Source: Acetobacteraceae bacterium
Lineage (GTDB): Bacteria > Pseudomonadota > Alphaproteobacteria > Acetobacterales > Acetobacteraceae
DNA length: 46,813 bases
NCBI GenBank assembly: GCA_025352375.1
Contig: JANXTL010000065.1
Span: forward strand, 1-46,813
Direction of reading: 5' to 3'
Part shown: positions 10,087 to 24,764 of the stretch, in pieces
How the letters are laid out: the number at the start of each line of letters is the position of its first letter
How positions within the stretch are numbered: position 1 is the first letter of the stretch
Notes under the pieces: generated by a model
Databases searched by the model: none
What the model was told of the DNA's origin: nothing
Seen by the model: only the letters and a program-made list of their open reading frames with translations
Program-made: the position numbers and the translations under genes

Positions 10087-12252
10087 ATGTTCCAGCAGGC
10101 CGTCATGCTGTACCAGCAACGCCGTCTGCCTGAGGCAGACAAGCTGCTGGGACAGATTCTGCAACGCGCGCCGGCCGATGTGGGCGCGTTGCATTTGGCG
10201 GGGCTGATCGCGCAGGAGACCGGGCGGCTGCAACGGGCGGCGACTCTGTTGGGCAAGGCGGTCAGGTTGAACCCGCGCACAGCGCCGTTGCTCGACGCGC
10301 TGGCTGGGGTGCTGAACGACCTCGGTCAGAGGCAGGAAGCGCTGGCGCATTGGGACCAAGCGGTTCAGGCCGATCCGGGTTTCGCCGATGCATGGGTCAA
10401 TCGCGGGACGTTGCTGAAGGTCTTAGATCGCGTGGAGGAGGCGCTCGCCAGCTATGATCGGGCGCTGTCGCTTGAGCCGAACTTCGCCGAAGCCCACTAC
10501 AATCGGGCGCTGGCGCTGAGCCAGCTCAAGCGATTCGAAGCCGCACTGCAAAGCTGCAACCGGGCCATAGCGCTGACGCCCGGATTTGCCGAGGCGCATT
10601 TCAGCCGAGGCACCATCCTGGCCGATCTGAAACGCGACGCGGAAGCCATGACCAGCTTTCGCCAAGCCATCGCGCTAAAACCGGACCACGCCGAGGCCTA
10701 TTATAATATCGGAACTTCCCTGCTCGGGCTGTCCCGCCTTCGGGAGGCCATCGAGCTTTTCGACCGAGCGATTGTGTTGAAACCGGATCATGCCGACGCC
10801 TATCACAATCGCGGGGTCGCGCAGGAGGAATTGGGGCTGTTTGACGCCGCGATCGAGAGCCAGGAGAAAGCCCTGGCGCTGCGACCGGGCTTCGAATTTC
10901 TCGATGGCGACCTGCTGCAGCTGCGATTGACGGTTTGTGACTGGGACGGTCTGGACCCCACGCTTACTCGGATTTCCGAACGAGCGGCGAGGGGGGAGCG
11001 GATTTGTTCGCCGTTCGCCTCGCTGCTGGCGATCGCCGACCCGGCGCTGCAACGGCGGGCGGCGGAGATTTATGCCGCGGCTAAATATCCGGCGGATAAA
11101 CGGTTGGGGCCAATTGCGCCCGGGCCCCCGGGGGACAAGATCCGTGTCGGCTATTTCTCGGCGGATTTTCGCGAACATCCAGTATCGCAGCTGATGATTG
11201 GCCTGTTCGAAAACCACGACCGGGCGCGGTTTCACGCCGTCGGGTTCGCGTTCGGCCCCGTGACCGGCGACGCCATGGCGGCCAGAGTAGCCGCAAGTCT
11301 CGATGCATTCATCGACGTGCGGGGCATGTCCGATCAAGCGGTGGCACAACTTGCGCGTGACGAAGAGATCGACATCGCGATCGACCTAAGCGGCTACACG
11401 AAACATGCTCGGACGGGAATTTTCGCGTTTCGGGCAGCGCCGGTTCAGGTCGGATATATCGGGTACCTAGGGACCATGGGCGCGGATTACATCGACTACA
11501 TCCTGGCCGACCGCGTGATGGTTCCCGATTCGGCGCGACGGTATTACACGGAGAAAATCGCGCACCTTCCATGCTACCAATCCAACCCAGCCGACCGTTC
11601 GGTATCCATTACGCCGGTATCCCGAGCGGATATCGGCCTGCCCGAGGTTGGGTTCGTTTTTGGCTGCTTCAACAATAATTTCAAAATTCTTCCGGCTGTT
11701 TTCAGCGCCTGGGTTCGTATTCTGACAGCGGTACCAGGTAGCGTGTTGTGGCTTTACATCACGGGCGACGCTGCGGAGCGAAACATCCGCGCCAGCGCGG
11801 CTGCCATGGGCCTCGATCCTACCCGAATCGTTTTCGCTCGGCGAACGCCCCACCCCGAATATCTGTCGCGGCTTCGACTCGCGGATTTGTTCCTGGACAC
11901 CTCGCCCTATAACGCCGGCACCACGGCCAGCGACGCGCTGTGGATGGGGCTGCCGGTGCTGGCCCGGCTGGGCGAAACGTTCGCTGGACGGATGGCTGCC
12001 AGTCTGTTGACCGCAATCGAGGTGCCTGAGCTAATCGCTTCATCATTGAAAGAATATGAAGCGATGGCGATTGCGCTCGCGCAGGACCCCTGCCGCTTGG
12101 CCGACATCAAAAGAAAATTGACGCATAATCGCGCGACGTCGCGCTTATTCGATACAGAACGGTTCGCGCGGAATATGGAGACCGCGTACACCGCGATAAT
12201 CGCACGTTACCAAGCTGGACTGCCGCCCGACCATATTCAGGTCGAGGACTAG
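10087..12252 (+). CDS. TPR protein with O-GlcNAc transferase (GT41, SPINDLY-type) catalytic domain
   Basis: A 721-residue protein. Residues about 1-270 hold roughly seven tetratricopeptide repeats of the pattern 'ALASYDRALSLEPNFAEAHYNRA'. Residues about 345-715 form a GT41 domain: 'IRVGYFSADFREHPVSQLM', 'DIAIDLSGYTKHARTGIFAFRAAPVQVGY', 'GVFGCFNNNFKI'-type strand region, and the UDP-sugar-binding 'LFLDTSPYNAGTTASDALWMGLPVL'. Bacterial members glycosylate proteins such as flagellins or use unknown acceptors. The gene follows the SDR by 5 bases and converges on glpK. Confidence 0.9.
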   Translation: MFQQAVMLYQQRRLPEADKLLGQILQRAPADVGALHLAGLIAQETGRLQRAATLLGKAVRLNPRTAPLLDALAGVLNDLGQRQEALAHWDQAVQADPGFADAWVNRGTLLKVLDRVEEALASYDRALSLEPNFAEAHYNRALALSQLKRFEAALQSCNRAIALTPGFAEAHFSRGTILADLKRDAEAMTSFRQAIALKPDHAEAYYNIGTSLLGLSRLREAIELFDRAIVLKPDHADAYHNRGVAQEELGLFDAAIESQEKALALRPGFEFLDGDLLQLRLTVCDWDGLDPTLTRISERAARGERICSPFASLLAIADPALQRRAAEIYAAAKYPADKRLGPIAPGPPGDKIRVGYFSADFREHPVSQLMIGLFENHDRARFHAVGFAFGPVTGDAMAARVAASLDAFIDVRGMSDQAVAQLARDEEIDIAIDLSGYTKHARTGIFAFRAAPVQVGYIGYLGTMGADYIDYILADRVMVPDSARRYYTEKIAHLPCYQSNPADRSVSITPVSRADIGLPEVGFVFGCFNNNFKILPAVFSAWVRILTAVPGSVLWLYITGDAAERNIRASAAAMGLDPTRIVFARRTPHPEYLSRLRLADLFLDTSPYNAGTTASDALWMGLPVLARLGETFAGRMAASLLTAIEVPELIASSLKEYEAMAIALAQDPCRLADIKRKLTHNRATSRLFDTERFARNMETAYTAIIARYQAGLPPDHIQVED

Positions 12253-18066: not shown

Positions 18067-18567
18067 TCATGGTCGGGCCTGACCCGGCCACCTCAGGCCC
18101 GTTGGCCGCATCATGATCGGGCCTCGGTGCCCGGCGACGAGCGGTCCAAGCCCAACCATGACGGTGGCCGGACTCGCCGAAACCATCTGCGCCAACGTCC
18201 GGTATCCCGCTTCGTTCGGGTGTAATTTGTCGCCCCCGACGTAGGGGCCGGTGTCGATCGTCCTGTCCCCAAACCGTCTCGCGATCGTTTGAATGGCCGC
18301 GCGTGCGTCGCCATGCCCGAACGGCAGCAACCAGATCACGGTCCTGGCGGTCACCGCCGATCGCACTCGAGCCAGACTTTCCAGCGTGTGCGCCCCGGCA
18401 CCGTCGTTGACCCCCAGGCTGATCACGACCTTATCGGCGCGGTACGGCGACAGGCGTTCGATAACATAGCGTGCCGACGTGATGCCCACCTCGGCCTCGA
18501 TACGGCATTGCGGCAGTTGCTGACCGACGCCGACGGCCAAGCTGTCTCCCAACGATAAGCAGAACAT
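18067..18567 (-). CDS. Compact SGNH/GDSL hydrolase-like protein
   Basis: A 166-residue protein, essentially a bare SGNH fold without signal peptide. Block I is 'LGDSLAVGVG' (Ser nucleophile about residue 8), block III is 'SLGVNDG' (oxyanion Asn), and block V is 'DKLHPNEAGY' (Asp and His of the triad). ATG 18567 was preferred over 18582 because GGGAGG lies 5 bases upstream of it. It is last in a minus-strand series with the small membrane protein, MBOAT and SGNH lipoprotein genes. It closely resembles the protein at 22523-23119 in all three blocks. A role in envelope O-acetyl turnover is inferred from context; with no signal peptide its location is uncertain. Confidence 0.78.
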   Translation of the reverse strand: MFCLSLGDSLAVGVGQQLPQCRIEAEVGITSARYVIERLSPYRADKVVISLGVNDGAGAHTLESLARVRSAVTARTVIWLLPFGHGDARAAIQTIARRFGDRTIDTGPYVGGDKLHPNEAGYRTLAQMVSASPATVMVGLGPLVAGHRGPIMMRPTGLRWPGQARP

Positions 18568-18623
18568 AGCGATGCCTCCCATTCCGGAGGCAAAGCATTT
18601 AACAGCGAAAGGTAAAGAAAGTC

Positions 18624-18890
18624 TTAACGGGAGCCAAAAAACTTCGCGGCCTCCATATCTCTGACCGCTTCATGCAGCCATTTGTAGGGCTGGTTCAAAC
18701 CCGTCCGTTCTCCCAAGGCTTGGACCTTAGGCGCCCAATCCCGCAGCGTGTCATTGCCCTGGTTCGTGCCCACCGTATCCAGCCAGGCGGCCAGCGGGGT
18801 CGTGCCAAGGGCGGCGCTGACAGTACCGCCGAGCACATACAGAATCGCCAGTCCGAATGGCGTCACCCTGCCTTTGGTTCGCGGAACCAT
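18624..18890 (-). CDS. Small single-pass membrane protein in the O-acetylation operon
   Basis: An 88-residue protein starting at ATG 18890, preceded by a strong GGGGGG-type ribosome site and 8 bases after the MBOAT stop. A membrane helix ('FGLAILYVLGGTVSAALG') spans about residues 12-30, and the remaining 58 residues look periplasmic and helical ('WAPKVQALGERTGLNQPYKWLHEAVRDME'). No family is recognised. It may be the membrane-anchor part of an AlgJ/AlgX-like partner reduced to a separate peptide, or a small accessory subunit of the MBOAT. The longer in-frame ORF to 19268 is antisense-frame noise inside the MBOAT gene. Confidence 0.7.
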   Translation of the reverse strand: MVPRTKGRVTPFGLAILYVLGGTVSAALGTTPLAAWLDTVGTNQGNDTLRDWAPKVQALGERTGLNQPYKWLHEAVRDMEAAKFFGSR

Positions 18891-18898
18891 CGTCCCCC

Positions 18899-20317
18899 CT
18901 AAAACTGGAAGTAGATGAAGGGCGCCACGCCGTCCGGCCCCAGCGCGTCGATCATAGCGATGCCGGCACCCGCGACCAGCGCCCAGGTCCAGTTCGGCCA
19001 CGACCCGGCGTACCCCGCGAGCCGCCCCGCCATTTGGCGCGGCACCGCGTTCAGCACCAGGCCCAATACAACGAATCCCAGGGTAAGCGGCGCGATTTGC
19101 AACTGCGCGTCGGCTGCCGGCGCCTCGGTCAAATAGACCAAAACCGTGTCGAAACTGGCTGCGCGGAACAGCACCCAGCTCAAGCAGACGATGTGGAACA
19201 CCACAAGCAAGCGGATCGCCCGCCCCAAACGGGAGGATGCCCACACCCCGAGCGGCGTATCCGACCATTGCCGCAACCAGCGCTCGACCACCAGGCCGAT
19301 CCCGTGCAGCGCGCCCCAGGCGACGAACTTCAAGGCCGCACCATGCCAGATGCCACCGAGCAGCATCGTGATCAGGAGGTTACGCGCCGTGAACCAGTTG
19401 CCGCCCCGGCTGCCGCCGAGCGGTTTGTACAGATAGTCGCGCAGCCACGACGACAGGGAGATATGCCAGCGCCGCCAGAACTCCTGCAGACTAAGCGATC
19501 GGTACGGCTGATCAAAATTCAGCGGGAATCGGTAGCCCAGCAGCGCCGCCAACCCGATCGCGATGTCGGTGTAGGCCGAGAAGTCGCAGTAGATCTGTAC
19601 CGCATAGCCATAGGCCGCCAGCAACCGATCCAACGCGCCATAACGGCCAGGATCGAAGAATACGGGATCGACCAGGTCGGTCGCGATGTAGTTCGCCAGC
19701 ACCACCTTCTTGAACAAACCGCCGAGGATCAGCAGCACCGGTTCGGCCAGCGGCACCCTGGCCGGCACCGGCTGGGCCAATTGCGGCAGAAAGTACGACG
19801 ACCGGACGATCGGGCCGGCGACCAGCTGCGGGAAGAACGACAGATAGAGTAAAATATGGTCCAGTCGCCGGCACACCGCGACATCGCCGCGATAGACGTC
19901 CACCAAATAGGAGATGCCGTGGAACATGAAAAAGGAGATGCCGACAGGCAGGATAACCTCGATCAGCGGGAATTGCGCACCCGCATGAGCAGCGTCGAGC
20001 GCCGCGTTCAGGCCACCAATCAGGAAGTCGTAATATTTGAAGAACGCCAGCAGCAGCAAATGCCCCGAGATAGTGCACCCCACCACCAGACGGCGGGCAC
20101 GATCCGAAGCCATCGCCGCGATACCCAACCCACCCAGGTATGTCAGCACGGAGCTGCCCGCGAGAAGGAAGCAAAAATGCCAATTCCATTGCGCGTAGAA
20201 CCAATAGCTCGCGACCACCAGCATCAGATTCCGTGCTCGGGTGTACCCGGCAAAGGGCACGGCAAGCGCCACGACCACGAAAAAGAACAGCAAGAAGTCG
20301 AGAGTCGGAAACAGCAT
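18899..20317 (-). CDS. MBOAT family O-acyltransferase (AlgI/PatA type)
   Basis: A 472-residue polytopic membrane protein. The MBOAT core is clear: 'YCDFSAYTDIAIGLAALLGYRFPLNFDQPY', 'FWRRWHISLSSWLRDYLY' (W-H285) and the active-site His H325 in 'LLGGIWHGAALKF'. AlgI and PatA carry an acetyl group across the inner membrane for O-acetylation of alginate or peptidoglycan. Here the partner is an SGNH lipoprotein whose stop overlaps this start by one base (TGATG), and a lytic transglycosylase lies nearby. This favours peptidoglycan or another envelope glycan as acceptor, though an exopolysaccharide cannot be excluded. Confidence 0.93.
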   Translation of the reverse strand: MLFPTLDFLLFFFVVVALAVPFAGYTRARNLMLVVASYWFYAQWNWHFCFLLAGSSVLTYLGGLGIAAMASDRARRLVVGCTISGHLLLLAFFKYYDFLIGGLNAALDAAHAGAQFPLIEVILPVGISFFMFHGISYLVDVYRGDVAVCRRLDHILLYLSFFPQLVAGPIVRSSYFLPQLAQPVPARVPLAEPVLLILGGLFKKVVLANYIATDLVDPVFFDPGRYGALDRLLAAYGYAVQIYCDFSAYTDIAIGLAALLGYRFPLNFDQPYRSLSLQEFWRRWHISLSSWLRDYLYKPLGGSRGGNWFTARNLLITMLLGGIWHGAALKFVAWGALHGIGLVVERWLRQWSDTPLGVWASSRLGRAIRLLVVFHIVCLSWVLFRAASFDTVLVYLTEAPAADAQLQIAPLTLGFVVLGLVLNAVPRQMAGRLAGYAGSWPNWTWALVAGAGIAMIDALGPDGVAPFIYFQF

Positions 20318-21597
20318 CAGGATTGAGGCCGAAGCGCTTTATATTTCTCGTAACCCTCCATCAGCACCTGGAACAGTACGTCGGCCGTTGCCTGATATCC
20401 GGGGCGCAGCAGGTGGACATGATCGGGCGCCGCCATCGGCGGTCTGGTCGTCGCCCAGCGACCGATGCTGCACGCGCCGCCCATCGCTGCCTGCCAATCC
20501 CAGAAGAACAGATTTTCCCGGGCCGCGACCTCCCGTTGGATGTCGCGCACCAGCGCCAGGCGCGGCGGCTGCTCCCAATGCGGATCGCCACATGTGGTGT
20601 GACCCTTGAAGCCTTTGGGCGTCCGTTTGGCGCTGTCGGGTGGCCCGAGCACCACGATGGCCGCGGAGGGGGCGGCGGAGCGGAGCATTCGCAGGGCTTG
20701 GTCGAACCGCTGGCGGTAGGATCCCGCCTCAGTGCCGTTGCCGAACGCCTCATTGGTCCCAAAAGCCACCAGAATGGCCGACGGCGCGAGCCGGGTCAGC
20801 TCTTGCCGCACCAGTGCCGGGTCCATCTGCAAGAGGATATCCACCGTCGCCCCGATCGTCCCCAGGTTGGAGACGATCACGCCCGGCCGGTCACGCTCGG
20901 CTGTCCAGGACAGCATGTCGACGGGTGCGTCGCCCACGGCGCTGACCGTGACTTCGCCGCCGCCGGCCCCCTTGGGCAACGTGACCCATTGCGGACCGAG
21001 TGTAGCCGCGTTCGTGGAAATACGCGTCCGCCAACCCGTCGCCGACGCGATATCCACCGACCCGCCGCCGGGCTGGGCCAGGAATTCCAGCAATACGCTG
21101 GTCTGATCCGCCGGATCGGCCGACGACAGCGTCATCTCGGCCGGTCCATCGGCATGTTGGCGAAGCCCGGCGATCCCCATCGGACCCGCCGCCCGTCCGG
21201 CGCGATCGAGCGTCCACCCATTGGATACCGCGGACACCCTATCCGGGCGGTAATAGTTGAACGGTACGCCGGGATGCAGCACGCCGCGCCCGGCATCGCC
21301 AAAGCGCGCCTGAAACTGCGTGCGCAGGCGGCCGCTGAAGCTGTCGTTGGCGGTATGGCTGTCGCCGATTAGCAGGACCATGACGGGGGCGGTGCGGGTC
21401 CTGGTCTCCAACCCGCTCAGACCGCGGAACAACGGCACCAATGGTCCGGCTGGCCCAAGCTTGCCGATGGCTTCGGCATCGGGAATACCCCGGTAGGCCG
21501 AGCAGCCTGACAACGCGAGGCACAGAATCACCAAAATGTGAGCGACATTCGGCCACGATACAGGTGCTATGGGGAGCACGGGTTCACGAGACGACAT
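20317..21597 (-). CDS. SGNH/GDSL family lipoprotein (PatB-like O-acetyltransferase or esterase)
   Basis: A 426-residue protein with a lipoprotein signal: hydrophobic 'ILVILCLALSGC' with the lipobox Cys at 32 when started at ATG 21597. Block I is 'LLIGDSHTANDSFSGR' (S80), block III 'VAFGTNEAFGNG', block V 'DHVHLLRPGY'. The GDSHT form and the following 'FGDAGRG' resemble PatB-type proteins that pass acetyl groups from an MBOAT partner to peptidoglycan. A longer start at 21681 is possible in frame but would overlap the divergent SGNH gene and spoil the signal peptide. The stop is translationally coupled to the MBOAT gene. Confidence 0.85.
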   Translation of the reverse strand: MSSREPVLPIAPVSWPNVAHILVILCLALSGCSAYRGIPDAEAIGKLGPAGPLVPLFRGLSGLETRTRTAPVMVLLIGDSHTANDSFSGRLRTQFQARFGDAGRGVLHPGVPFNYYRPDRVSAVSNGWTLDRAGRAAGPMGIAGLRQHADGPAEMTLSSADPADQTSVLLEFLAQPGGGSVDIASATGWRTRISTNAATLGPQWVTLPKGAGGGEVTVSAVGDAPVDMLSWTAERDRPGVIVSNLGTIGATVDILLQMDPALVRQELTRLAPSAILVAFGTNEAFGNGTEAGSYRQRFDQALRMLRSAAPSAAIVVLGPPDSAKRTPKGFKGHTTCGDPHWEQPPRLALVRDIQREVAARENLFFWDWQAAMGGACSIGRWATTRPPMAAPDHVHLLRPGYQATADVLFQVLMEGYEKYKALRPQS

Positions 21598-21673
21598 GGA
21601 CCACCGATTGCTCCTCAAGCATGACGTGTGTAAGCTAGCATTGGTTTTTTCCTCTGTCATCGGGTGGTCGTGC

Positions 21674-22393
21674 GTGAACATTCCGCGTCGTGACGCGCTG
21701 CTGGTAGCAGCCGCGTGTGCAATCTTCGGGATGTCCGGGGCTCAGGCCGCCGAGACGATCAACCGCATATTGGTCGTCGGCGACTCCCAGGCCCAAGGCT
21801 TGGCCGGCGGCTTGCAACGGGTGCTGCTGCGGGAGCGCGAATGGCGGGTGATCGATCGGTCGCACATCTCCACGGGTCTGTATTCGCCGGTTAAATTCGA
21901 CTGGCCCGCGTCGGCCGCCGGCATCGCGGAAAAGGAACATGGCGCGCTGGCGGTGGTCATGTTCGGCGCCAACGACCGTCCGAACATTCGCACCAAGGGG
22001 GCCATCGATCCGCAGCGCGCCGTTGCCTGGGCCGCCCCCTACTGCGCCCACATCCGCGCCGTCGCGTCAGCCCTCAAACGCGGCTGCGCAGGGGTCGTCT
22101 GGGTCGGGCATCCGATTGTCCGCGACCCCGTCTACGCCGAAGACATGGCATTCCTGAACAGTCTCTTCGAGTCCGAGGCCATCGCCTCCGGGGCGCAATG
22201 GCTCCCATCCTGGCCGATATTTACTGACAAAGATGGCCAGTACACCGCGCACGGTAAGGCGCTCGATGGCCATCTCGAACGGCTCCGCGCCGACGATGGG
22301 GTGCATCTGACGGCTGCGGGGTACGATGTCCTGGCGAACGCGCTGATGCCGATCCTGCGGGCCGATCTCGGGATTCCCGCCCCTAGACCATGA
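21674..22393 (+). CDS. Secreted SGNH/GDSL hydrolase, DUF459-like
   Basis: A 239-residue protein from GTG 21674 with a signal peptide (VNIPRRDALLVAAACAIF..., cleavage after AQA). Block I is 'VVGDSQAQGLAGGL', block III 'MFGANDRPNI', block V 'DGVHLTAAGYD', so the SGNH residues are complete. It is divergent from the SGNH lipoprotein with only 76 bases between starts. In-frame ATGs at 21596 and 21569 exist but would bury the signal peptide. The last two codons (Arg, Pro) and the TGA stop lie inside the 117-bp repeat copy A, so the natural C-terminus may have been altered. Likely a periplasmic esterase or acetyltransferase. Confidence 0.82.
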   Translation: MNIPRRDALLVAAACAIFGMSGAQAAETINRILVVGDSQAQGLAGGLQRVLLREREWRVIDRSHISTGLYSPVKFDWPASAAGIAEKEHGALAVVMFGANDRPNIRTKGAIDPQRAVAWAAPYCAHIRAVASALKRGCAGVVWVGHPIVRDPVYAEDMAFLNSLFESEAIASGAQWLPSWPIFTDKDGQYTAHGKALDGHLERLRADDGVHLTAAGYDVLANALMPILRADLGIPAPRP

Positions 22394-22500
22394 TCGTTTG
22401 AGGTTGCATGCGATCTCGGCGTTGGATCATGGTCTAAGCCTTTGTTTGAGAGGGTGATTCACGCCCGAGGTTGAAGTCAACCTCAGGCGATCACGCTCTA
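22384..22500 (-). repeat. 117-bp dispersed element, copy A
   Basis: One of three copies of equal length in the window. In the orientation of copies B and C it begins TAGAGCGTGATC and ends GATCATGGTCTA, terminal inverted repeats matching at 10 of 12 positions. An internal TAGACCATGATC pairs perfectly with the end over 12 bases, and CCTGAGGTTGA / TCAACCTCGGG form a second palindrome. Copy A differs from copy C at one base. It supplies the final two codons and stop of the DUF459-like gene. It resembles the short palindromic intergenic elements common in alphaproteobacteria and is MITE/REP-like, with no coding capacity. Confidence 0.93.
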
Positions 22501-22522
22501 AGCCTGCCTGAAGGACCAACCC

Positions 22523-23119
22523 GTGATTCCATGTCTGATCCTCGGTGACAGTCTCGCGGTCGGTGTCGGACAGGCCCGGCCGGAGTGCACAGTCGCCGCG
22601 GAGGTCGGGATCAACACATCGCGCTACCTGCAAGTCTGGCATCCCCCGTTTCATGCCAAAATCGTGGTGATCAGCCTTGGGGTCAACGACTCCCTGGATA
22701 TCGAAACCGAGCACAACCTGCGCCGGCTGCGGCATGGGATTTCGGCGGATACGGTCTATTGGCTGCTGCCTGGCATTCACCCGACCGCCCGCACCGCGGT
22801 GCACGACATCGCGCGGGAGTTCCGGGACAAAACCATCGATGTCGCGCCGTTGACGGGTGCGGATCATATCCATCCGGACCGCACGGGATACGCGAAGCTT
22901 GCGTCGCTCACCCGACATGGGGCGGGTGAGTATGTTCCGAGGCGGGCAGCCTACACCGACGTGCCGACCCATGGGTCGGTTTACCGTTCATTTACGCATG
23001 GCAATGGGGCCTATCGCGATTTTGCCGTTCGGCAGCTTCCCGGGATCAATATCTGGCGCGGGCCCGATAGCCTGAACGGTCTGCCTGTGCCGCCGATGCC
23101 GCCGAAACTGCCGCGCTGA
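22523..23119 (+). CDS. Compact SGNH/GDSL hydrolase-like protein with C-terminal extension
   Basis: A 198-residue paralogue of the protein at 18067-18567. Block I 'LGDSLAVGVG', block III 'SLGVNDS', block V 'DHIHPDRTGY' are in the same order and spacing, followed by a roughly 55-residue tail rich in Pro, Gly and Tyr ('GAYRDFAVRQLPGINIWRGPD'). GTG 22523 has AAGGA at 22511-22515. There is no signal peptide. Its 3' end overlaps the convergent lytic transglycosylase by 74 bases. The dipartite tail may bind the substrate or a partner; no family could be named. Confidence 0.78.
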   Translation: MIPCLILGDSLAVGVGQARPECTVAAEVGINTSRYLQVWHPPFHAKIVVISLGVNDSLDIETEHNLRRLRHGISADTVYWLLPGIHPTARTAVHDIAREFRDKTIDVAPLTGADHIHPDRTGYAKLASLTRHGAGEYVPRRAAYTDVPTHGSVYRSFTHGNGAYRDFAVRQLPGINIWRGPDSLNGLPVPPMPPKLPR

Positions 23120-24764
23120 CAGGACGCGACAGCATCGGGTAGTGTCCTTTCGATAGCGCATCCAGACTCGGCGCTGGCAGCCGCAAGTACACCGCATAGC
23201 GCCACGATGCCGCCAGCGCATCGAAAAGAAATGCCCGCAGGATTGGGCTTGGCACGGCCTCGAGAAACATCAAGGGATCGCCACCGTCGTGGACGGCCGT
23301 TACCCAGCGTTTAATGGCCCCTTGCCCTTGGCCATAAGCTGAAAGAACCCGCAACAAATCGCCATGAATATCGGGGTCGTTCGCCAACACGATAATGTAT
23401 CGTTGTCCGACCGATAAATTGATCGCCGGGTTGGTAAGTTGGCTGGTTTGGGCAGCGGTCAACGCACCGATTCCCTGGGCGGTCGACGGCATGATTTGCA
23501 TCAGTCCCAAGGCCCCCAGGCTTGAAACGACATCGGATTGGAAATTCGATTCGTGGTGTACGATGCCGTAGACAAGAGTCGGATCGACAATAAACCCACC
23601 GTCGGGCCGCAATTTGGGCGGTGCCAGTTTGTCGGCGATGGTCGTAACGGTGCTGTAGCCAGTACGAAGCTCGGCCGCGAGATTTGTCATCCCCGTCGTA
23701 TCGGCGACCGCCACCAATAGCCGCCCAAGGGACGGTTCCGTTTGCAGGTCGAGCGACAACGCTCGCACCTCATCCTCCGCGCGTTTTTTATCGCCAATCT
23801 GCAACAACCCAAACGCGCGACGCGCGCGCGGAATCGTGAGCAGCCGCTCGATATCGACGACGCCGATAGTCCGTTGCGGAATAAATTCAGTATCCACAAT
23901 GTGGATCAAACCAAGCTTGCGGCGTGCGATGCGGCCGTAAAACGTATCTTGGAAAAGAGCGGCCCTTCGAAGCCAAATCGAACTTTCGCCAGGCTGGCCA
24001 TTTCTCTCGTTGTCATGTGCGATCCAATACGCCGCCGCGGCTCGGATCGTCGTCAGTTGCGTCGAATCATAGGCTGCCGTAAAAAAGGACACAGCCGTGG
24101 CTTTGTCGTTCTGACGCCACGCCGCAAGGCCCGCGGCAAACAAATCATCTGCCGCACGCGTACGCGTGCTCGACATCATGACGATTTGCCCGGCGCGGAT
24201 AGCCTCTGCATCACGGTTATGCACAAATAGAGTGCGAATTGTGCCGGCTGCACTGTTCCCCCGCGCCACTTCGACGGCCGCCCGATGCACCGGACGACTT
24301 CCGTCCCCACGTGCGACGGCACTCGCCGACTCAATACGCCTGAGACGCGCGGCAATAGCCACGTTGTCGGATTGTTCGCCAAATCGACGCAACCAATCGG
24401 ACAATTCGGCAACCGTGGGGTGCAGATTCGGATTGAGGTAACGCGCCGCCAAAACCGGTCCCACCATCAAATCTGATTCGAGATTCGCGATGTCTCGGTC
24501 AGCGTCGGATATCGCGCCGACTACCTGCAAATCCAGAATACGCGTCAGCATAGCTACGTCGCTAGGCGACAATGGCCGTGGAAAATCGATCCGATCACTA
24601 CCTGGCATGACCAAATGTGGTAACGCCATCGCGGTTTCATCGTTCGTTTCAGCGGCTCGCTGAGCAATGGCAACAGATACGCAGCTCGATACCGCTAAGA
24701 CGGCACAAAGCGCATAGATACCACAGTTCGCGAGCCAGCTGTCGATGCGCTGTCTCGTTCGCAT
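23046..24764 (-). CDS. Lytic transglycosylase (SLT domain)
   Basis: A 572-residue periplasmic protein with a signal peptide (hydrophobic 'IYALCAVLAVSSCVSVAIA'), a long helical region (about 60-370) of the Slt70 superhelix type and a C-terminal SLT domain. The catalytic Glu is E405 in 'IVHHESNFQSDV', followed by 'SLGALGLMQIMPSTA' and 'NPAINLSVGQRYI'. It cleaves the MurNAc-GlcNAc bond with 1,6-anhydro ring formation, a step blocked when MurNAc O6 is acetylated, which links it to the neighbouring MBOAT/SGNH genes. Its base composition looks clearly less GC-rich than neighbours, suggesting transfer. The C-terminus overlaps the SGNH gene by 74 bases. Confidence 0.9.
   Translation of the reverse strand: MRTRQRIDSWLANCGIYALCAVLAVSSCVSVAIAQRAAETNDETAMALPHLVMPGSDRIDFPRPLSPSDVAMLTRILDLQVVGAISDADRDIANLESDLMVGPVLAARYLNPNLHPTVAELSDWLRRFGEQSDNVAIAARLRRIESASAVARGDGSRPVHRAAVEVARGNSAAGTIRTLFVHNRDAEAIRAGQIVMMSSTRTRAADDLFAAGLAAWRQNDKATAVSFFTAAYDSTQLTTIRAAAAYWIAHDNERNGQPGESSIWLRRAALFQDTFYGRIARRKLGLIHIVDTEFIPQRTIGVVDIERLLTIPRARRAFGLLQIGDKKRAEDEVRALSLDLQTEPSLGRLLVAVADTTGMTNLAAELRTGYSTVTTIADKLAPPKLRPDGGFIVDPTLVYGIVHHESNFQSDVVSSLGALGLMQIMPSTAQGIGALTAAQTSQLTNPAINLSVGQRYIIVLANDPDIHGDLLRVLSAYGQGQGAIKRWVTAVHDGGDPLMFLEAVPSPILRAFLFDALAASWRYAVYLRLPAPSLDALSKGHYPMLSRPVSAAVSAASAAQADRSGYRARARY

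Follow-up and report, generated by a model that had tools for sequence, protein, structure and literature searches.

In the window, by which we mean the whole 46,813-nucleotide stretch analysed here (contig JANXTL010000065.1 of GenBank assembly GCA_025352375.1, one contig of the 5.1 Mb genome of an Acetobacteraceae bacterium), a group of genes lying between dnaN and recF probably forms a peptidoglycan O-acetylation and de-O-acetylation cluster of the Acetobacteraceae, i.e., a divergent layout of the patA-patB-ape1 (OAP) cluster with added parts. The open reading frame (ORF) list and Pfam/NCBIfam profile scans place seven ORFs between dnaN and recF, four of which encode SGNH proteins, and thereby bear out the gene order, the strands, the SGNH count and the dnaN-recF placement given in a first-pass annotation. 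The family identities, motifs, gene order, co-occurrence and selection reported below come from sequence comparison or structural models. The features of the locus, sgnhA to ape1 on one strand, patB and sgnhB on the other and then a lytic transglycosylase gene, are the following:

18067-18567, minus strand: sgnhA, leaderless compact SGNH hydrolase of 166 aa (GDSL_2, E 2.2e-8; GDSL, GVND and DxxH present)
18624-18890, minus strand: small protein of 88 aa with one hydrophobic stretch, directly 3' of patA; candidate PatA-PatB adaptor
18899-20317, minus strand: patA, MBOAT O-acetyltransferase with C-terminal FIYFQF (MBOAT, E 1.3e-28)
20317-21597, minus strand: ape1-like SGNH lipoprotein with an inserted domain, predicted peptidoglycan O-acetylesterase (GDSL_2, E 3.2e-13; lipobox LSGC)
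21598-21673, no strand: divergent gap between ape1 and patB, presumed two-way control region, conserved in four genus genomes
21674-22393, plus strand: patB, DUF459 SGNH O-acetyltransferase with a twin-arginine-type signal peptide read by eye (DUF459, E 1.3e-56)
22523-23119, plus strand: sgnhB, second compact SGNH protein, likewise leaderless and extended by a C-terminal tail of ~65 aa (GDSL_2, E 7.1e-6)
23046-24764, minus strand: Slt-type lytic transglycosylase, a flank gene rather than a fixed member of the unit (SLT, E 5.9e-21)
before the cluster: dnaN (TIGR00663, E 3.9e-78)
after the cluster: recF (TIGR00611, E 1.6e-63)

By family, sequence and model matches, the DUF459 protein is the PatB transferase of the cluster, and its transfer of acetyl to N-acetylmuramic acid (MurNAc) is predicted. 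A review (PMC9487903) treats DUF459 as the PatB family. The window protein matches the NCBIfam PatB model (E 5.7e-23), and a PDB sequence search with it returned four distinct sequences, namely three PatB proteins and one Campylobacter jejuni DUF459 protein almost identical to CjPatB. It has an SGNH domain with the Ser/Asp/His triad and, in its structural model (pLDDT 80.1), a PatB-like fold. The top five structural matches of 350,542 PDB chains were 8gr2, 8tlb, 7tjb, 7trr and 7tlv; the last four are titled PatB, and 8gr2 bears the title GDSL-family esterase CJ0610C of C. jejuni and has an aligned sequence nearly that of C. jejuni PatB. According to PMC12148441, solved PatB proteins have the block II Gly replaced (Ser161/Asn165; Ser in NgPatB) and carry two wing-like beta hairpins above the active site. 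The window PatB has Ser65 in block II, where ordinary SGNH enzymes have Gly, and its model contains short paired strands as possible candidates for the hairpins. It has no N-terminal membrane anchor with a ~100-residue linker and bears a signal peptide instead. The same holds for the other PatB proteins not encoded downstream of patA, in which a signal peptide precedes the SGNH domain, with a short linker in some, and a twin-arginine motif was read by eye in 20 of 22 (exceptions L058 and L175). When a Neisseria-type PatB was searched against 185 genomes from the class to which G569 belongs, G569 itself gave the sole match.

The first-pass annotation had assigned the PatB role to the SGNH lipoprotein. 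We rejected this because of an Ape1-type match, residues 73-414 of the lipoprotein aligning with PDB 4k3u (E 4.5e-32). Although 4k3u was deposited as a GDSL-like lipase, we take it to be the Neisseria Ape1, since its aligned residues agree closely with Ape1 of a canonical patA-patB-ape1 cluster (L207). The lipoprotein shares 28% identity with the Ape1 of that cluster, along with GDSH, GTNEAF, AMGGxCS and DxVH, and possesses the Ape1 features that were compared (an SGNH hydrolase, a domain inserted after block I and the Ape1 motifs). It is thus Ape1-like by sequence and a predicted de-O-acetylase. Of 299 genomes of the family, 23 encode an Ape1 homolog, that of the window among them. Twenty Ape1 stretches were fetched and profiled with L058, L065 and L033, the last being the G022 stretch without Ape1, which leaves 22 Ape1 stretches; PatB-type and PatA-type genes are each found in 20 of these, and patB is divergent from ape1-patA in 16. 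The side-by-side pat and ape genes that mark an OAP cluster are hence present in the window and in relatives. Genome G107 holds two Ape1 genes (L169, L170), one of which adjoins a PatB-type gene, the 16 kb fetched there containing no PatA gene.

The MBOAT protein is PatA-like by sequence. The histidine of its WHG motif, presumably the published catalytic His, is invariant in all nine aligned proteins, and FIYFQF at the end of the window protein fits the acyl-shuttle motif FXYXXF, PatA being shown to auto-acetylate the Tyr of this motif (PMC12148441). Together with its PatB and Ape1 partners, these traits uphold the earlier proposal of a PatA-type MBOAT in a peptidoglycan O-acetylation cluster.

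We infer the polymer, the direction of each reaction and the roles of the small protein and the compact SGNH pair from sequence, and propose the following scheme. PatA would charge the Tyr of its C-terminal FIYFQF with acetyl drawn from acetyl-CoA; PatB, exported by its twin-arginine-type signal, would receive the acetyl and place it on O-6 of MurNAc, where it would block lytic transglycosylases. The Ape1-like lipoprotein would remove the acetyl, allowing transglycosylases such as the neighbouring one to work. The small protein would dock the anchorless PatB to PatA, and the leaderless compact SGNH proteins would act in the cytosol, e.g., on O-acetylated wall fragments imported for recycling.

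Orthologs of the six cluster genes, in the same order, were found in four further genus genomes (G009, G016, G003 and G010; the window copy is that of G000). The pairwise ratio of non-synonymous to synonymous substitution rates (dN/dS) against relatives was 0.09-0.30 for all computable cluster-gene pairs, the comparison of the small gene with L032 being saturated at synonymous sites (printed 0) and that of sgnhB with L050 lying outside the set. These values indicate that the cluster genes are under constraint and, together with the order kept in four genomes, that the layout is not due to chance. The two divergent gene strings, each closed by a compact SGNH gene, leave a single 76-nt gap. This gap is strongly conserved in an alignment of four genus genomes, while the fifth, G010, aligns poorly; it is likely a control region, and a consensus promoter scan of 21598-21673 gave no promoter.

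The small protein had no Pfam or NCBIfam match at E 0.1 (scanned as a longer ORF), its start being most likely at 18890 rather than 19268. A small ORF with one hydrophobic stretch lies directly 3' of patA in 21 of the 23 loci where PatB does not follow patA; the two others are L174, whose contig ends there, and L170. It is absent from all three loci in which an N-terminally extended PatB gene follows patA (L186, a family member, L207 and L208). The dN/dS ratios point to purifying selection on the small gene. Because the Neisseria and Campylobacter PatB proteins have an N-terminal membrane anchor that is missing here, we propose a docking function: given its position and this mutual exclusion, the latter drawn from three loci only, the small protein probably replaces the PatB anchor and docks PatB to PatA. 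A DltX identity was rejected, as the protein ends in AAKFFGSR without FXYXXF and the motif sits on the MBOAT protein. In L170 (G107), a 188-aa ORF at ~10540-11106 that reads as a secreted small SGNH protein occupies the place after patA.

The two compact SGNH proteins are further additions. The GDSL_2 score of sgnhB (27.1 bits) is below the Pfam cut-off of 32.9, and its product shares 51.6% identity with that of sgnhA over 126 residues (E 7e-38). The catalytic motifs and two Cys residues (positions 3 and 21 of the first sequence) are invariant in 10 aligned copies, and the genes are under purifying selection according to dN/dS. The best PDB match of the sgnhA model (pLDDT 72.6) is the acetyl-mannan esterase 6hh9 (E 6.4e-5). 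Both proteins start at the first beta strand, leaving no room for a signal peptide: GTG 22523 is the earliest possible start of sgnhB, and the earliest start codon of sgnhA adds only 5 residues. No signal peptide was apparent by eye in ten other paired copies either. Within the genus, Ape1 occurs in 5 of 33 genomes, and compact SGNH genes, two copies each, in the same five and in none of the other 28. In G176, from another genus, the six genes are found in identical order on a contig without dnaN. Family-wide, compact SGNH matches were obtained in 13 of 397 genomes and comprise carriers of the unit (G000, G010 and G176), the form of G190, plasmid-like or transglycosylase-fused forms, and weak hits. 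In a tree in which 14 of 40 inner branches stay open, the six B copies group together with the transglycosylase-fused forms among them, the A copies form two neighbouring groups and the viral proteins stand apart, which suggests that the sgnhA/sgnhB duplication predates these two genera. The AnmK recycling kinase family is represented in 32 of the 33 genus genomes (31 over the curated cut-off), including that of the window, with or without the cluster. Since AnmK is near-universal in the genus, O-acetylated wall fragments could plausibly be handled by an esterase in the cytosol, and we tentatively suggest, with limited confidence, that the compact pair are cytosolic esterases of the same pathway, de-acetylating, e.g., recycled wall fragments.

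Relatives of the compact SGNH proteins, i.e., SGNH proteins of ~125 residues related by sequence and with the catalytic residues conserved, were found in 265 of 324 pattern-matched viral-contig stretches (80 kept, L070-L149), in 40 plasmid records (Roseomonas, sphingomonads and others) and in two phage records. The commonest recognised PHROG and Pfam families among 122 of 141 listed neighbour proteins from 19 viral loci are those of nucleotide metabolism, so the viral neighbourhoods give no clue to the substrate. A function as phage lysis accessory is unsupported, as there was no endolysin among the 25 commonest PHROG or the 25 commonest Pfam families, 86 and 40 rarer ones lying outside these; pointing toward lysis, an endolysin-like family (PHROG lysis hits) recurs in 16 of the 80 viral loci, and one phage record has a lysozyme gene close to the compact SGNH gene. 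Against PHROGs, neither the window proteins nor one viral copy had a match, and another viral copy weakly hit a family with no assigned function. Many viral copies adjoin genes that we read as peroxiredoxin-like and AhpD-like, names that PHROGs did not confirm. A degenerate compact SGNH domain in which GDG stands for GDS is joined to a transglycosylase domain both in G101 and next to traF on an Acidisoma plasmid. Such fusions, at L057:6389-7405 and L151:5977-6984, involve a VirB1-like transglycosylase (our own reading, for L151 also that of the record) and lie in Acetobacteraceae elements with conjugation genes.

Several observations weigh against the assignment of these genes to a wall O-acetylation pathway. 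The DUF459 protein scores 81.7 bits, far short of the NCBIfam PatB equivalog cut-off of 580, and block II across nine aligned proteins is Ser in 6 (window included), Ala in 1 and Gly in 2. DUF459/PatB-type proteins are common in the class (32 class genomes matched, including that of the window), and none of four further alphaproteobacterial-class DUF459 loci has PatA or Ape1 within the 10-12 kb fetched; for these reasons DUF459 by itself is no proof of wall acetylation. The small protein and the PatB N-terminus compared poorly (hhalign probability 0.2%, with 1 of 30 shuffles scoring higher), and an origin of the former as a split-off PatB N-terminus, which had a positional argument alone, was set aside on this negative profile comparison. 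Because the five genus carriers of the compact genes are partly close kin, their co-occurrence with Ape1 represents fewer than five separate events. Among the 22 Ape1 stretches, just 2 hold a compact SGNH gene, so the O-acetylation pathway does not need one, and the compact SGNH protein of the G190 patA cluster has a signal peptide, as judged by eye, which does not suit a role confined to the cytosol.

Other explanations would assign the cluster or its compact genes differently. That the cluster acetylates an alginate- or cellulose-like exopolysaccharide is conceivable because these polymers are also served by MBOAT-SGNH pairs (PMC12148441), and the genome has three further MBOAT genes elsewhere; the partners here are of the PatB and Ape1 type, and the 25 commonest Pfam families among 79 neighbour proteins from the patA clusters of 15 relatives, a partial test with 66 rarer families outside it, include no glycosyltransferase, polymerase or export family, which makes this very unlikely. 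The co-occurrence with exopolysaccharide genes that would have spoken against a wall function was thus not seen among those families. The abundance of viral and plasmid relatives, the degenerate fusion on a plasmid that has conjugation genes and the small number of genomic copies (13 family genomes) would suit passengers caught at both cluster ends with no acetylation role, but the invariant catalytic residues, purifying selection, an unchanged pair of positions in six genomes across two genera, the lack of any compact SGNH gene in the genus genomes without Ape1 and the placement of the copies outside the viral group, several branches being weak, render this quite unlikely. Finally, the compact proteins might reach the periplasm by an unusual route and act as further wall esterases or transferases, which comes near the proposal of the first-pass annotation. 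The G190 relative and the two invariant Cys, which could form a disulfide, favour this proposal, yet the window proteins have no room for a signal peptide and none is apparent in the paired copies, and we consider it doubtful. The first-pass annotation had regarded additional SGNH proteins as candidate de-acetylases: for the DUF459 protein this gives way to PatB, while the compact pair are still candidates whose direct action on the wall is doubtful, as no signal peptide fits.

The location of the unit, initially read as an interruption of the usual dnaN-recF pair, means little, and that interpretation was overdrawn. The unit is literally between dnaN and recF in G000, G009 and G003, and across a contig break, as deduced, in G016; in G010 it lies by dnaN, but the 6.4 kb fetched past the lytic transglycosylase contain no recF. 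In the genus, dnaN and recF are within ~0.25 kb in five genomes (G047, G011, G045, G013 and G012) and 1.5-4.8 kb apart in four (G015, G022, G002 and G023); on the remaining genus stretches, some of which are short contigs, the few kb around dnaN showed no recF. The location is weakened as a clue by the unit lying away from dnaN in G176 and by dnaN-recF being no fixed pair in the genus. The G022 interval contains a transglycosylase gene and no cluster gene, and in G099, of the genus of G176, recF, a transglycosylase gene and ape1 are neighbours, the 16 kb fetched having neither patA nor patB. The transglycosylase, which occurs at this site without the unit, therefore belongs to the place and not to the unit; it was not found on the 11.6 kb contig carrying the unit in G176. 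By analogy with Neisseria, where Ape1 acts in a complex with the outer-membrane transglycosylase LtgA and the two are mutually stimulating (PMC7083599), this neighbourhood may be useful, and the link to lytic transglycosylases drawn at the outset remains sensible. The same paper lists E. coli as an exception, a species whose wall is not O-acetylated. DnaN of G010 and of G176 are both 89% identical to that of the window, and PatA 67-68% and 72%, respectively. Recent transfer of the unit is not needed to account for these values, which would agree with long-shared possession and losses, and the layouts may reflect an ancient occupation of this site that was later lost or rearranged. The repeat search gave no sign of a mobile-element boundary among the 20 of 27 direct families and 25 of 30 inverted pairs listed, the longest inverted pair listed being sgnhA against sgnhB. 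At the other end, sgnhB and the transglycosylase gene overlap tail to tail by 74 nt (23046-23119), and similar overlaps are seen in G009, G016 and G003. The start of the DUF459 gene is most likely GTG 21674.

Compared with the OAP clusters of Neisseria and Campylobacter (Weadge et al. 2005, PMC1199599; Anderson et al. 2025, PMC12148441), the window shares an MBOAT with the shuttle motif, a DUF459/PatB protein, Ape1 with an inserted domain and their clustering. It differs in that patB is divergent rather than downstream of patA, that PatB has a twin-arginine-type signal and no anchor, and that a lipobox on the Ape1-like protein, an extra small membrane protein and two compact SGNH proteins are present. 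As in the DltB-DltX-DltD system of D-alanylation (PMC12148441), an MBOAT is accompanied by an SGNH-like partner and a small one-helix protein; unlike in Dlt, the shuttle Tyr motif is on the MBOAT and the small protein does not end in the FXYXXF of DltX. The MBOAT-SGNH principle is also common to alginate and cellulose acetylation (AlgIJFX, Wss), whereas the SGNH partners here are of the PatB/Ape1 type and polymer genes are missing from the 25 commonest neighbour families. The compact proteins resemble those of viral contigs, taken as phage, and of alphaproteobacterial plasmids in size (~125 residues), in being mostly leaderless and in the two Cys and motifs of the copies read, but their neighbours are acetylation genes rather than those of nucleotide metabolism.

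The system as such is known from the OAP cluster, and the departures from it are the divergent patB, the small protein and the compact SGNH pair. We did not find this variant described in paper listings on Acetobacteraceae wall acetylation, PatA microproteins, phage compact SGNH proteins, dnaN-recF insertions or cytosolic muropeptide esterases, subscription journals being mostly outside the scope. That both novelties hold jointly, i.e., a cytosolic arm served by a duplicated leaderless SGNH esterase, from a family that is otherwise mostly phage- or plasmid-borne, and a small protein that replaces the anchor, with a pre-folded, Tat (twin-arginine)-exported PatB docking on PatA, is unlikely. The Acetobacteraceae gain a genetically defined, divergent form of peptidoglycan O-acetylation with a likely gene for each reaction. 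Two parts of it are singled out: the small protein tied to an unanchored PatB, and the family of compact SGNH proteins that is frequent in contigs of uncultured viruses. The one recurrent chromosomal setting found for the latter is a wall-acetylation cluster, which offers a lead to the substrate of the viral enzymes.

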